A stretch of 6,849 bases of DNA, taken from assembly GCA_945979635.1 (NCBI GenBank), contig CAMFPZ010000047.1, positions 1-6,849 on the forward strand. Direction: 5' to 3'. The translations under genes were made by a program, and so were the position numbers. This document shows positions 2,691 through 6,668 of the stretch, one piece after another. The notes beneath the pieces were generated by a model. That model saw nothing but the letters and a program-made list of their open reading frames with translations, was not told the DNA's origin and made no database searches. The stretch comes from an uncultured Eubacterium sp. Lineage in GTDB: Bacteria > Bacillota > Clostridia > Oscillospirales > Acutalibacteraceae. Every line of letters begins with the position of its first letter. The first letter of the stretch is position 1.

Positions 2691-4362
2691 AACTCTAAAC
2701 AAAGATTGTCCCTTGAGCGAATATCCACGACCTCAATTCAAAAGGGATAGCTACCTAAATCTAAATGGTATTTGGAAATGCGATTTTTGCGAGAGCGAGG
2801 AGCTTTTGAGTGAGTATAAGTATGAGATTGTTGTGCCGTTTTCACCCGAAACGCCTCTTTCCGGTATAAATCGCACTTTGGGCAGCGAGGAATATCTGGT
2901 TTACGAAAAGGAATTTGATCTACCCGACGGATTTAATAAGGGTAGGGTATTTATCAATTTTGGTGCCGTTGACCAAATTGCCAAGGTCTATATCAATGGA
3001 AAAATTGTCGGTTCACATCATGGTGGCTATACTCCGTTTTCCTTCGAAATCACAGATTATATAAGTGAGCATAACATTCTTAATGTGACAGTTCGCGACC
3101 TGAATGAAAAAAATTCCTATTCCCGAGGAAAGCAAAATACAAATCGGGGTGGAATTTGGTATACAGCACAAAGTGGAATTTGGCAAACGGTTTGGATTGA
3201 AAGTACACCCTATGAATATATACCATTTGTCCGCATTACACCGGATTTCGATAGGGAATGTGTAGTTTTCAGTGCCCCGAATGGGATTAGGGTGCAAAAA
3301 CAAATATATGACGGCGATTTTCTGATTGCTGATACTACGGATGATACTGTCATAATTGAAAATATGAAGCCGTGGTCTCCGGAAAATCCGTTTTTGTATA
3401 AAGTTGTGTTTACATACGGTAAGGATAGAGTAAACTCGTATTTTGGTATGAGAAAATTCTCTGTTGGGGTTGATGATAATAATATCCCTCGTCTTATGCT
3501 CAATAATAAGCCGTATTTCTTTAATGGCCTGCTTGACCAAGGCTATTATCCCGATGGATATTTGACACCTCCGTCAAACGAAGCAATGAAATTTGATGTG
3601 GAATCCGTAAAAAGCCTTGGCTTTAATATGCTTCGTAAACATATAAAGATTGAGCCTATGCTTTGGTATCATTATTGTGATTTGAATGGCATTGTAGTGT
3701 GGCAGGATATGATAAACGGCGGAGGTAAATACGGAATGGAAACAAGTGTTGTACCTTTTGTCGGTGTAAATCTTGATGATACCGATTATAAGATGTTCAA
3801 GCGTACTGACGAAAGAGCCCGTGCTTTGTATTATAATGAGCTTCAGGAAATGCTCGATGCTTTGTATAATTGTCCCTGTATTGCCGTATGGGTACCCTTT
3901 AATGAAGGATGGGGACAGTTTGATAGTGATTATGCCTATAACTATATTAAAAGCTTTGATAAAACCCGTTTGGTTGATTCTGCCTCCGGCTGGCATCCTC
4001 AAAATGAAACTGATATTATTTCAAAGCACATTTATTTTACTCCTATTCGCGTAAAGGTAGGGGATAAGCCTTGGTGCTTAACTGAATTTGGCGGACTCGG
4101 AATTAAGGTTAAGGGGCATACATTTAATGAACGCATTTTTGGTTATAAGATTTATAAGTCAAAGCAGGGAATAACCTCTGCCTATAAAAGATTGTTTGAA
4201 AAAACCATTATTCCTCAAATAAAGAAAGGTCTGTGTGCAACCGTTTATACTCAAGTTACTGATGTTGAGGATGAACTAAATGGATTATTTACCTATGACA
4301 GACGGGTGCAAAAGATTGATACAGAAGTATTTAAAGTTATTAACGAAAGGATGAAAATATAA
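2671..4362 (+). CDS. Glycoside hydrolase family 2 protein, cytoplasmic
   Basis: A 563-residue retaining glycosidase of family GH2. Residues about 18-178 form the jelly-roll sugar-binding domain, with [38 protein letters not shown] and the [20 protein letters not shown] region typical of the family. About 180-265 is a compact immunoglobulin-like domain. From about 275 comes the TIM barrel, which starts [16 protein letters not shown] and continues with LRKHIKIEP and VVWQDM. The acid/base is Glu412 ([10 protein letters not shown]) and the nucleophile is Glu472 (CLT-E-FGG). There is no signal peptide, so it should act on sugars already taken up or on an internal glycoconjugate. The FNEGWGQFD group is neither classical LacZ (GNES) nor GusA (NEP), so I do not assign a substrate. 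Its 5' end overlaps the exporter gene by 20 nt and its TAA shares one base with the isomerase ATG, so it is embedded in the operon. Confidence 0.92.
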
Positions 4363-4922
4363 TGAAAGCAATTATTAAAACGAATATGGGGGATATGAGC
4401 TTTGAGCTTAATGATACTGCCGCACCAAAGGCGGTAGAGAATTTTACAACCCATGCAAAAAACGGCTACTATAACGGCTTGATTTTTCATAGAGTTATTA
4501 AGGATTTTATGATTCAGGGCGGAGATCCAACCGGAACCGGTATGGGCGGTGAATCAATTTGGGGTAGAAGCTTTGAGGATGAATTTTCACTGGATGCCCG
4601 TAATTATTACGGTGCTTTATCTATGGCAAATTCAGGACCTAATACAAACGGCTCACAATTCTTTATTGTTCAGGCAAAGGATGTTCCTTCCAATCTTCTT
4701 TCGCAAATGAAGCAAATTGGTGCACAGGGTGGCTTTCCGGAGGATGTTGTAGCTGCCTATGAGGAAAAGGGCGGCACTCCATGGCTTGATTTCCATCATA
4801 CAGTATTCGGTACGCTTATTGATGGCGGAGATGTTCTTGATAATATAGCAAATGTCAGAACAGGTATGAACGATAAGCCTATGTACGATGTTGTGATTGA
4901 AGCCATTGAAATTGTAGATTGA
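4362..4922 (+). CDS. Cyclophilin-type peptidyl-prolyl cis-trans isomerase
   Basis: A 186-residue single-domain cyclophilin that catalyses cis-trans isomerisation of Xaa-Pro bonds, assisting protein folding. With no signal peptide or lipobox it should be cytoplasmic. Active-site residues line up with human cyclophilin A: F42-H-R44 (catalytic Arg), F49-M-I-Q52-G-G, the [16 protein letters not shown] strand (87-102), Trp141 ([10 protein letters not shown]) and His146. Between SQFFI and WLD there is an insertion of about 30 residues (106-140) relative to human cyclophilin A. It makes a longer loop next to the proline pocket and has little similarity to the core. The ATG overlaps the glycosidase stop (TAATG). 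AAAGG at 4346-4350 is 11 nt upstream, somewhat far, so coupling with the upstream gene probably helps initiation. It is the last gene of the operon, and a hairpin terminator follows 20 nt after its stop. Confidence 0.95.
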
Positions 4923-4929
4923 TATTATA

Positions 4930-4964
4930 TTGCGACAAAATATACTCCCTTTATGCTTTATAAT
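4930..4964 (+). promoter_or_regulatory. Candidate Spo0A-dependent spoIIG promoter with 0A box
   Basis: A perfect sigma-A -10 hexamer TATAAT lies at 4959-4964, predicting a start near 4971. There is no good -35 at 17 bp. Instead TTGCGA (4930-4935, 4 of 6 to TTGACA) is 23 bp away, and TTGCGACAAA (4930-4939) read on the minus strand is TTTGTCGCAA, one base off the core TGTCGAA of the Spo0A box. In B. subtilis the spoIIG promoter also has an overlong -35/-10 spacing and Spo0A boxes at the -35 region, so position and content agree with known regulation. The assignment is by pattern and position only. Confidence 0.6.
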
Positions 4965-4990
4965 GAAGCTGTAAAGGGGGTATTTTTATT
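4942..4990 (+). terminator. Terminator-like hairpin at the end of the ispF operon
   Basis: ATACTCCCTTTA (4942-4953) pairs with TAAAGGGGGTAT (4972-4983) over 12 bp with one G-U pair. An inner GCTT/AAGC stem (4955-4958 with 4966-4969) closes a 7-nt loop, and five Ts follow (4983-4987) before the tract is broken by A and G. It starts 20 nt after the isomerase stop, so it can terminate the upstream operon. The TATAAT of the next promoter lies in its loop and the ribosome site of spoIIGA in its 3' arm. The A-run before the 5' arm (4937-4940) would allow some function on the minus strand too. Confidence 0.75.
4973..4980 (+). promoter_or_regulatory. Ribosome-binding site of spoIIGA within the hairpin 3' arm
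   Basis: AAAGGGGG is a strong anti-16S match, 7 nt before the ATT at 4988. It fits no ATG, GTG or TTG in the spoIIGA frame. It is base-paired in the terminator hairpin when transcription comes from upstream, but free in a transcript starting near 4971. Confidence 0.7.
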
Positions 4991-5785
4991 GTTGTTTATG
5001 TAGATGTTTTGCTTATGCTTAATTTTTTTTTGAATTTTCTCCTGCTGGAGCTGACCTCGAAGCTTTGTAAAAAGGATGGTCGAATGGGTCGCTTGATTTT
5101 TGCTTCCTGTCTGGGTGCGGCTTATTCTATGATTATTTTTTTGGATGGTTTGCCGCAGATTGTATCAGTTTTGTTGAAGCTTGTATGCAGTCTGATTATG
5201 GTAGCAGTTGCTTTTAGCTTTCATCGAGTATTGCAGTATATTAAGGCAGTTTTTGTCTTTTATTTTTCGAGCTTGATTTTTCTTGGACTAATAATCGCAA
5301 TCTGCTTTGGAATGAAGTTGAGCTTTATTGCCGTGAATAATTCGGTTGTATATTTTGACATTTCTGCCGGAACGATTATCGCCTGTGCATTTGCCGCTTA
5401 TCTCATATCTTGCCTCGTTATTCGTATATATGACCGAGTGCTCTCAAGGAGGGAAATATATACGCTCTTTGTTACATATGGTGATAATACTGTGTCATTG
5501 CTTGCTTTTTTGGACACAGGAAATAATCTCTATGAGCCGTTTTCTCATTCACCGGTTATTGTAGTTGATAAATCAAAAATTGATTATTCGCCAAAATCAA
5601 TTAGGTATGTTCCTGTTGCAACCGTAAACGGCCCGTCCGTACTTCCTGCATTTAAACCTGATAAGCTTGTGTTGAAATCATCTCTCGGTGAGGAAATAAT
5701 CGAAAATGCCTATATTGCAATGTCCGATAATATGCCGAATAACGGCGTTTCTGCCTTGCTTAATTATAATATTCTCTCTGTTTGA
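4988..5785 (+). CDS. spoIIGA: Sporulation sigma-E factor processing peptidase SpoIIGA
   Basis: SpoIIGA is a membrane-embedded aspartic protease of the sporulation septum that removes the pro-sequence of pro-sigma-E. The N-terminal half holds five hydrophobic segments (about 2-22, 36-54, 57-78, 84-107 and 124-147). The C-terminal half has the protease motif FLD176-T-G-N-N-L-Y-E-P followed by SPVIVVD, matching the Asp-Ser/Thr-Gly site of B. subtilis SpoIIGA. RYVPVATVNG and FKPDKLVL match its later strands. The protein is 265 residues against about 309 in B. subtilis; the lost stretch lies between SPVIVVD and RYVPV. An ATT start is chosen because the in-frame residues from 4991 (VVYVDVLLMLNF) match the conserved family N-terminus and a strong ribosome site sits 7 nt upstream. 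The first conventional start is TTG at 5009, which has no such site and would cut the first helix. The gene sits 12 nt before sigE. Confidence 0.9.
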   Translation: MVVYVDVLLMLNFFLNFLLLELTSKLCKKDGRMGRLIFASCLGAAYSMIIFLDGLPQIVSVLLKLVCSLIMVAVAFSFHRVLQYIKAVFVFYFSSLIFLGLIIAICFGMKLSFIAVNNSVVYFDISAGTIIACAFAAYLISCLVIRIYDRVLSRREIYTLFVTYGDNTVSLLAFLDTGNNLYEPFSHSPVIVVDKSKIDYSPKSIRYVPVATVNGPSVLPAFKPDKLVLKSSLGEEIIENAYIAMSDNMPNNGVSALLNYNILSV

Positions 5786-5797
5786 AAGGTTGTAAAT

Positions 5798-6499
5798 ATG
5801 AAAAAGTTGATTGATTTTATTCTAAGATTATTTGAAAATAATACCTGTCACTATATAAATGGTCCGGATACTCTGCCGCCACCTTTAACGAAGGAGCAGG
5901 AGAATAGAATTATATCGGAGCTTGCGATCGGTGATGAAACTCATAAGGAACTGCTAATAATTCATAATCTACGACTTGTTGTATATATTGCACGAAAATT
6001 TGAGTGTCCTACCGTAACGACCGAGGATTTGGTATCTATCGGAACAATCGGACTTATGAAGGCTGTGAACACCTTTGATTATACGAAAAACATAAAACTT
6101 GCTACCTATGCATCAAGGTGTATTGAAAATGAAATACTGATGTTCCTGCGTAAAGCATCAAATTCGAAGATTGAGCTTTCCTTCGATGAACCCTTGAGCA
6201 CGGATTGGGATGGTAATGAGCTTACTCTGCGTGATGTTCTGGGTACAGAGCCTGATGAAATAAGCGAGAATATTGAATTTGAGGATGAACGACTGTTACT
6301 GCGTAGAGTAGTTATGTCTCTACCCGAAAAGGAACGCAATATAATGTATCGTCGCTTTGGCCTAAATGGTTGTACCCCACGCACTCAAAAGCAGCTTGCA
6401 GATGAACTCGGCATCTCCCAGTCCTACATTTCACGCCTAGAAAAGCGTATTTTGAATAAAATAAAAAAAGAAATGGAAAATAGCTTCAAACTTTTTTAA
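5798..6499 (+). CDS. sigE: RNA polymerase sporulation sigma factor SigE (pro-sigma-E)
   Basis: A 233-residue sigma-70 family protein that directs early mother-cell transcription after SpoIIGA cleavage. Order: pro-sequence (1 to about 18, with an amphipathic LIDFILRLFE helix), the cleavage-site region CHYINGPDTLPPPL matching YYIGGSEALPPPL of B. subtilis, region 2 (about 55-120: NLRLVVYIARKFE, EDLVSIGTIGLMKAVNTFD, LATYASRCIENEILMFLR), the SigE-typical SFDEPLSTDWDGNEL linker (128-141), and region 4 with a helix-turn-helix at 196-219 (TQKQLADELGISQSYISRLEKR). Identity to B. subtilis SigE in regions 2 and 4 is high by eye. It is told from SigG/SigF by the pro-sequence, the linker and the spoIIGA neighbour. 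AAAGG (5785-5789) is 8 nt before the ATG. It should be cotranscribed with spoIIGA. No convincing terminator follows before the tRNA. Confidence 0.97.
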   Translation: MKKLIDFILRLFENNTCHYINGPDTLPPPLTKEQENRIISELAIGDETHKELLIIHNLRLVVYIARKFECPTVTTEDLVSIGTIGLMKAVNTFDYTKNIKLATYASRCIENEILMFLRKASNSKIELSFDEPLSTDWDGNELTLRDVLGTEPDEISENIEFEDERLLLRRVVMSLPEKERNIMYRRFGLNGCTPRTQKQLADELGISQSYISRLEKRILNKIKKEMENSFKLF

Positions 6500-6548: not shown

Positions 6549-6633
6549 GCAGGTATGGTGGAATTGGCAGACACGCTAGATTTAGGATCTAGTGGAGCGA
6601 TCCTTGCAGGTTCAAGTCCTGTTACCTGCACCA
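6549..6633 (+). tRNA. tRNA-Leu (anticodon UAG)
   Basis: An 85-nt class II tRNA. The acceptor strands GCAGGTA (6549-6555) and TACCTGC (6623-6629) pair fully, with A discriminator and encoded CCA (6631-6633). The anticodon stem CTAGA/TCTAG (6576-6580 with 6588-6592) encloses the loop TTTAGGA with anticodon TAG at 6583-6585, reading CUA and, by wobble, other CUN codons. A long variable arm (6593-6605, with GGA/TCC pairing) is as expected for leucine. T-arm GCAGG-TTCAAGT-CCTGT closes with one G-U. The D-arm carries the AATTGGCAGACACGC typical of bacterial tRNA-Leu. It has its own promoter and terminator, so it is a monocistronic unit that may also receive readthrough from sigE. Confidence 0.98.
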
Positions 6634-6634
6634 C

Positions 6635-6668
6635 AAAAAGCAGATACCCATTCGGGCATCTGCTTTTT
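6635..6668 (+). terminator. Rho-independent terminator of tRNA-Leu
   Basis: AAAAAGCAGAT then CCC pair with GGG then ATCTGCTTTTT across one A/C mismatch, with loop ATTC. It begins 2 nt after the CCA end and ends in five Ts. As no other terminator is visible behind sigE, it probably also ends spoIIGA-sigE readthrough. The mirrored A-run makes it potentially bidirectional, which suits the convergent tRNA on the other strand. Confidence 0.9.

Follow-up and report, generated by a model that had tools for sequence, protein, structure and literature searches.

Positions 4942-4987 of the 6,849-nt stretch of DNA analysed here (the window), which comes from an uncultured Eubacterium sp., are best read, with a probability of about 0.8, as the predicted terminator of an isomerase transcription unit built round the predicted -10 element of a likely Spo0A-type promoter. 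This element would stop read-through towards the sporulation gene spoIIGA, hide the Shine-Dalgarno (SD) sequence of spoIIGA in any message that passed, and spare the transcript made from the gene's own promoter. On this model, transcription that enters from upstream would produce both arms of a hairpin and mostly stop at the T-run that follows, and in any message that got past the T-run the ribosome site would stay paired. Transcription begun at the internal promoter, probably at about position 4971, would yield the 3' arm only; as such a transcript lacks the 5' arm it could not form the hairpin, and it would therefore neither stop nor hide its ribosome site.

All genes of the window lie on the plus strand, in the order partial ispF, a small ORF for which no Pfam match was found, an ABC transporter, a GH2-like protein, a cyclophilin-type peptidyl-prolyl isomerase, spoIIGA and sigE (Table 1), and 65 nt lie between the end of the isomerase stop codon and the spoIIGA start. 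Positions 15-48, fused to the start of ispF, resemble what we take to be the Nextera read-2 transposase adapter; they are likely a library artefact at the contig end, with the truncation of ispF as its result. Directly 3' of sigE we noted a tRNA-Leu gene (6549-6633) and, after it, a terminator-like repeat recognised by eye at about 6635-6668; in B. subtilis the place directly downstream of sigE is occupied by sigG.

Table 1. Features of the spoIIGA region, in coordinates of the window
Feature	Position	Strand	Basis
Cyclophilin-type peptidyl-prolyl isomerase, co-directional neighbour of spoIIGA	4362..4922	+	PF00160, E 3.4e-46
Likely 0A box at the -35 position	4930..4940	-	TTTTGTCGCAA, agreeing with the core TGTCGAA in 6 of 7 bases
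Outer 5' arm of the hairpin	4942..4954	+	fold, covariation
Inner stem of 6 bp (4955-4960 with 4964-4969) and its loop	4955..4969	+	fold
TATAAT, the predicted -10 element, at the apex of the hairpin	4959..4964	+	sequence; conservation
17-nt leader of the own transcript, probable start at about 4971 judged from the -10 position, without the 5' arm	4971..4987	+	inference; folding of 4971-5010
3' arm, including the likely Shine-Dalgarno GGGGG at 4976-4980	4971..4983	+	sequence, fold; G-rich SD kept in three stem-less loci
TTTTT, the terminator's T-run, which leads directly up to the start codon	4983..4987	+	sequence; eroded along with the stem in three divergent relatives
Likely AUU start codon of spoIIGA	4988..4990	+	no canonical start codon from the in-frame stop up to codon 8; ATT in 25/27 of the clade
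spoIIGA, pro-sigma-E protease	4988..5785	+	PF03419 from residue 2, E 2.8e-48
sigE, sporulation sigma factor	5798..6499	+	Sigma70 r2 and r4; position after spoIIGA

The outer stem of the hairpin has 13 base pairs (4942-4954 with 4971-4983), with a one-base bulge at 4970, and a perfect TATAAT forms the apex. The minimum free energy of positions 4942-4990 is -21.4 kcal/mol against a mean of -7.5 for shuffled sequences (z -6.1), and none of the 200 shuffles was as low. Folded alone, positions 4971-5010 reach -1.6 kcal/mol (z -0.25), that is, there is no stable fold from 4971 onward. The hairpin with TATAAT in its loop and the SD in its 3' arm, which an original prediction had read from the letters alone, is thus confirmed by sequence and fold, and the contrast it anticipated between the folding of the whole element and that of the 3' part was also found. 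The stable hairpin is followed directly by the T-run, the arrangement of an intrinsic terminator, and the -10 element lies inside the hairpin, so that the terminator overlaps the next promoter. A simple terminator scan reported no terminator at 4942-4987, likely because of its loop limit of 3-8 and the bulge. A search of window positions 4800-5100 against Rfam gave no family above its gathering score, the best match being SpR14_sRNA with 34.9 bits against a cut-off of 50.

The promoter in the hairpin appears to be of a particular kind. In B. subtilis, spoIIG is transcribed from a sigma-A promoter with Spo0A binding and a 22-bp spacer, and a long spacer with a consensus -10 upstream of spoIIGA-sigE fits this type. 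Here the original prediction needs a correction: the upstream element does not stand at the usual -35 distance but is GACAAA at 4934-4939, and the end of its GACA lies 21 nt from TATAAT. On the reverse strand it reads TTTGTC, close to the core motif of the 0A box, TGTCGAA (PMC3485338). The gap from GACA to the -10 is 21 nt in 149, 22 nt in 20 and 19 nt in two of the 171 loci accepted in a search of the genus loci and 120 outside loci that was limited to 19-23 nt and whose scoring favoured 21. In the 48 aligned loci that carry the merged element described below, five of the six TATAAT columns are invariant and the sixth is conserved in more than 90%. Spo0A_C is encoded in 71 of the 80 genomes of the genus, including the window's own. 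We infer from these features a spoIIGA promoter of the Spo0A/spoIIG type, with its long spacer of 21-22 bp, that would be activated by Spo0A. The pattern GACAAA-N19-TATAAT occurs 11 times in six genomes, five times at spoIIGA and six times elsewhere; when 75 nt were folded at each of the latter (-6 to -13 kcal/mol), inspection by eye found no strong hairpin closely round the -10.

To follow the element through the genus we used SpoIIGA matches at 69 places in 68 of the 80 genomes of the genus, the window's own genome among them. One sequence with its N-terminus missing (G021) and a second copy in G068 with 31% identity were not used, and G037, with 7 nt upstream, entered only the trees; 67 starts were extracted, 66 of them with upstream DNA. 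A tree of SpoIIGA and SigE, made by a quick search with SH-aLRT support only, separates groups that we call ATT (27 members), TTG (24) and ATG (16, of which 15 have upstream DNA). We call a hairpin with the -10 inside it and a T-rich tail behind it the merged element; it is present in 24/27, 24/24 and 0/15 of these, respectively. This amounts to 48 of the 66 loci with upstream DNA, the window's own and 47 others, and to 48 of 51 in the two clades that hold the hairpin; the 18 exceptions are three species of a single clade with an inverted upstream gene and the 15 of the ATG clade. A co-directional neighbour was established, by homology or by an open frame, in 46 of the 48 merged loci. Of the other two, G035 reaches the edge of its contig, and the cyclophilin match of G062 stops at a distance of 262 nt upstream. 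The neighbours are a cyclophilin in 31 loci, an RlmL-like protein in 11 (further away in G019), another co-directional protein in three and a sigma factor in one, and two have no assignment by homology. The hairpin was kept while the upstream neighbour changed over time (isomerase, RlmL-like, sigma factor, other). One genome, G014, has a strong separate hairpin in addition to the merged one. The sigma factor, in locus L028 of G018, is a sigma-70 factor with regions 2, 3 and 4, and its place upstream of spoIIGA is an unusual order for a spoIIG cluster.

The arms of the hairpin covary among these 48 species, and the test on relatives that the original prediction called for thus came out positive. 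RNAalifold found ten pairs in the 48 aligned elements, nine of them with changes on both sides, in a plain MAFFT alignment with indels near the loop from which the structure itself was derived. Paired cells make up 89.8% (10.2% are unpaired), compared with 77.2% in shuffled and 54-65% in slid controls, and 72 cells have changed on both sides against 22.9 in the shuffles. Because shuffles ignore relatedness, changes were also counted on the tree, where each of the five inner pairs requires between 6 and 11 changes per side.

The original prediction had missed one component of the element: the frame of spoIIGA opens at 4988 with ATT and not with a canonical codon. In the ATT group, own sequence included, the first codon is ATT in 25 of 27 members, TTG in G062 and ACG in G013, and in the TTG group it is TTG in 23 of 24 and ATG in one. 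The window and 11 further ATT members have no canonical start from the in-frame stop to the ATT, and in the other 13 a canonical codon stands at -6 or further up, which places it level with or upstream of the putative transcript start, or upstream of the SD. As upstream canonical codons are absent or too far up and downstream ones share no common position in the group, AUU is likely the start of spoIIGA in these 25 species. Elsewhere in the available spoIIGA stretches isoleucine is encoded by ATT 328 times, ATA 219 times and ATC 124 times; 25 of 25 ATT by chance would have a probability of 1.7e-8 on the assumption of independent species, which they are not. The likely AUU start is also present in Eubacterium coprostanoligenes ATCC 51222. 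T-rich start codons also lengthen the T-run, and this is a possible reason for the choice of codon. Out-of-frame mini-ORFs overlap the start in the window (4989-5003, TTG TTG TTT ATG TAG), ending in ATG TAG.

By the same -10 rule as in the window, leaders of 11-20 nt are expected in the 48 merged loci, and one of 15 nt in Eubacterium coprostanoligenes ATCC 51222, which has the complete element. The predicted probability that the SD is unpaired has a median of 0.001 in read-through RNA of the two hairpin groups and of 0.29 and 0.26 in their own transcripts, and in read-through RNA it is at most 0.03 in all 48 loci. The corresponding predictions are 0.39 (read-through) and 0.40 (own) for the three species with the inverted gene and, as medians, 0.06 and 0.49 for the ATG group, in which 13 of 15 loci were folded (G026 and G075 were left out). 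The hairpin is thus predicted to hide the SD nearly completely in read-through RNA, with own transcripts incompletely open, and the ATG group would also show some hiding, though it has no merged terminator.

What happens to the element when there is no transcription to be stopped? The three members of the ATT group that lack it (0/3 carry a merged terminator), G066, G069 and G048, form one nested clade with 99% SH-aLRT support, and the hairpin is present in their sister, G017. In these three the upstream gene is on the opposite strand and encodes a LamG/GH43 protein in G069 and G048 and a homologue in G066. Stem and T-run have both decayed in this clade: the stems are weak (-3.9, -7.7 and -5.1 kcal/mol in G066, G069 and G048, a partial stem being kept in G069), and the six bases before the start read ATAGAG, ATTATT and ATAACT, compared with ATTTTT in 19 of the 24 hairpin members of the group. 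Even in the hairpin clades the T-runs are short, with means of 4.8 and 4.6 T in these six positions; the three losers have 2.3 on average, and for the ATG clade the mean is 2.0. TTGACA-21-TATAAT, the G-rich SD and the ATT are all retained in the three species. By itself this loss is only suggestive, because it is a single event in the genus.

The ATG group has the same type of promoter, with the start one codon earlier (ATG in seven, TTG in five and GTG in three loci). Mechanical calls give a co-directional neighbour in 12 of its 15 loci, and ten of these twelve (G032, G050, G051, G052, G002, G042, G026, G079, G036 and G005) have a separate terminator-like hairpin between neighbour and promoter. 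No such hairpin was found in G072 and G078, where the neighbour is more than 400 nt away. The divergent loci of the group have none (G030) or weak ones far upstream (G074 and G075). With a looser cut that requires no T-tail, a hairpin round the -10 appears in four of the 15 loci (G052, G051, G002 and G050). Merged and separate terminators thus replace each other, in a complementary distribution.

A single-protein scan of genome contigs confirmed no relative; an alignment query gave 382 matches, of which the best 80 were kept, and a further search gave matches in at least 221 of 250 genomes, four of them of the genus. The sample from outside the genus, 120 loci, consists of 106 from the top of the matches listed and 14 of the best-80 set; 108 were counted, and 12 were dropped for having no acceptable promoter, less than 70 nt upstream or identical last 60 nt. 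Merged terminators are present in 12 of the 108, with arms of different sequence. In all 12 the neighbour was called co-directional, the gaps are 58-82 nt and a second terminator is absent. Among unmerged co-directional loci without a hairpin, 38 of 49 have a separate terminator and 11 have none by the same scan, while 14 of 41 called-divergent loci without a hairpin show one; no divergent outside locus is merged (these 41 and one hairpin locus). Orientation is associated with the merged state (Fisher p = 0.0015, with G107, G112 and G257 counted as unmerged, species that are not independent, and orientation taken from a mechanical ORF call, one of which, G033, was wrong in the genus). These three loci have hairpins without a T-run, G107 and G112 beside a co-directional and G257 beside a divergent gene. 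With the looser cut that ignores the T-tail, 36 outside loci pass, 26 called co-directional and 10 called divergent; as such hairpins include divergent loci, it is the terminator-like form and not just any hairpin that tracks gene direction. In locus L186 of G257, a hairpin round the -10 contains the ribosome-binding site (RBS) and has no T-run, and the divergent upstream gene encodes a TRAM domain; this may be a case in which the RBS is controlled and transcription is not ended. In a tree built from 74 SpoIIGA proteins, many of whose deep forks are unsupported, the merged state needs at least seven changes, which we read as about five gains and two losses. The idea that the element insulates spoIIGA is supported by this pattern: it implies, beyond what the original prediction spelled out, that the element should decay where there is no co-directional upstream gene, as is seen in the genus and, by mechanical gene calls, outside it.

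Is the element selected for stopping transcription, for hiding the ribosome site, or for both? The original prediction held that it insulates at two levels. Covariation and the gene-direction pattern uphold termination, and we regard this as the best-supported selected function: stopping the neighbour's transcription looks like the primary job, as all 12 outside merged loci are co-directional with gaps of 58-82 nt. The second level fared less well as a selected function, because in seven of these 12 terminators (L141, L142, L143, L150, L151, G260 and G323, by eye) the RBS stands after the T-run, so that its hiding is not the common factor; it would be an additional consequence in gaps as short as this one. 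One could go further and see only an ordinary terminator in a short gap, with the SD in its arm because about 60 bases are shared and with no selected role for hiding. The seven loci, the occurrence of merged elements at short gaps and the erosion of the T-run along with the stem agree with this, but the low SD access in read-through RNA throughout the 48 genus loci speaks against it, with cause and by-product not separated there, as do the SD-like G-rich bases in the arm of the remaining five outside terminators (L146, L147, G252, G154 and G141, by eye). We hold this view to be a serious though tentative alternative. An even bet, in our judgement, is the fuller proposal that the 57 bases at 4934-4990 combine 0A box, -10, stem, SD, T-run and a weak AUU into a lock on protease synthesis that would shut out growth-phase transcription through termination, through ribosome access and through the start codon, and that such elements have repeatedly arisen at spoIIGA where the neighbour is co-directional and the gap short.

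The opposite simplification, a hairpin that blocks translation of read-through messages without ending them, could point to the predicted pairing of the SD in read-through RNA, to the precedent of read-through from spoIIG to sigG in B. subtilis (PMC5942855) and to the hairpins without T-run in G257, G107 and G112. It is nevertheless unlikely, given that the T-run tracks the stem through the four sets of genus loci and that merged and separate terminators substitute for each other. Could the real promoter be another one? A simple promoter scan favours TTGATA-16-TATACT at 4919-4946, ordinarily spaced and matching 10 of 12 consensus bases, and a spoIIGA message starting from it would include the greater part of the 5' arm. 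In the TTG clade this -10 has not been conserved, its place being taken by AATTAAACCCC or similar, and GACA-21/22-TATAAT is kept in 169 of the 171 accepted loci in a search that favoured that spacing; we consider this promoter very unlikely. Finally, the palindrome overlaps a promoter and might act as DNA, binding a repressor or activator, and not as an RNA structure. We reject this as highly improbable: arm sequences vary among species while the pairing is kept, and other genera have different arms.

Each part of the proposed element has a precedent. In Salmonella tufB-secE and other ancient operons, an operon's terminator overlaps with the promoter of the operon that follows, and interrupting this arrangement lowers fitness (PMC7055797). 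The spoIIGA element shares the overlap and differs from tufB-secE in having the -10 at the apex, a 3' arm that is the likely SD and a sporulation gene downstream, and in that its gain and loss can be traced against gene order. Long transcripts of the T4 lysozyme gene e hide the RBS in a hairpin, and late promoters start inside it, giving transcripts without the 5' part that are well translated (PMC3014915). This resembles the RBS in the hairpin and the internal start predicted at spoIIGA, but the promoter there is a phage late promoter and not of the Spo0A type, and no terminator is described in the part of the paper available. The large hairpin of B. subtilis sigG is proposed to block translation of spoIIG read-through, and transcripts that start at the sigG promoter itself are unable to form it (PMC5942855). 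This hairpin acts downstream of the spoIIG operon, and a promoter-in-loop terminator is not described in the same portion of that source. The Streptomyces sigR start GTC, like ATT in E. coli infC, is non-canonical and repressed by IF3 (PMC5472188); spoIIGA would be a comparable case of a non-canonical start on a regulatory gene, with a likely ATT on the gene of the sigma-E protease. C. difficile Spo0A binds the DNA upstream of spoIIGA weakly (PMC3485338), and the gene has a SigA promoter there (PMC7438776). The spoIIG promoters of B. subtilis and C. difficile are the known counterparts of the likely sigma-A/Spo0A promoter in the window, with no overlapping terminator described in the excerpts available. 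Titles and abstract openings of the open-licence PMC literature gave no description of a merged terminator or an ATT start at spoIIGA, nor did we find in this literature, to the extent searched, an account of these parts joined at spoIIGA and traced as they were gained and lost.

What does this mean for the bacteria? SpoIIGA starts a cell-fate step, so that a leak from a growth operon should be costly, and the hairpin would likely stop messages leaking from the neighbour while leaving those of spoIIGA itself untouched. The AUU start would mean that ordinary annotation misplaces the start of SpoIIGA, and IF3 may bear on sporulation. Since gene order, terminator placement and start codon can be compared across 66 genus loci and 108 outside, the spoIIGA loci make it testable how adjacent, oppositely regulated operons are insulated in almost no space.
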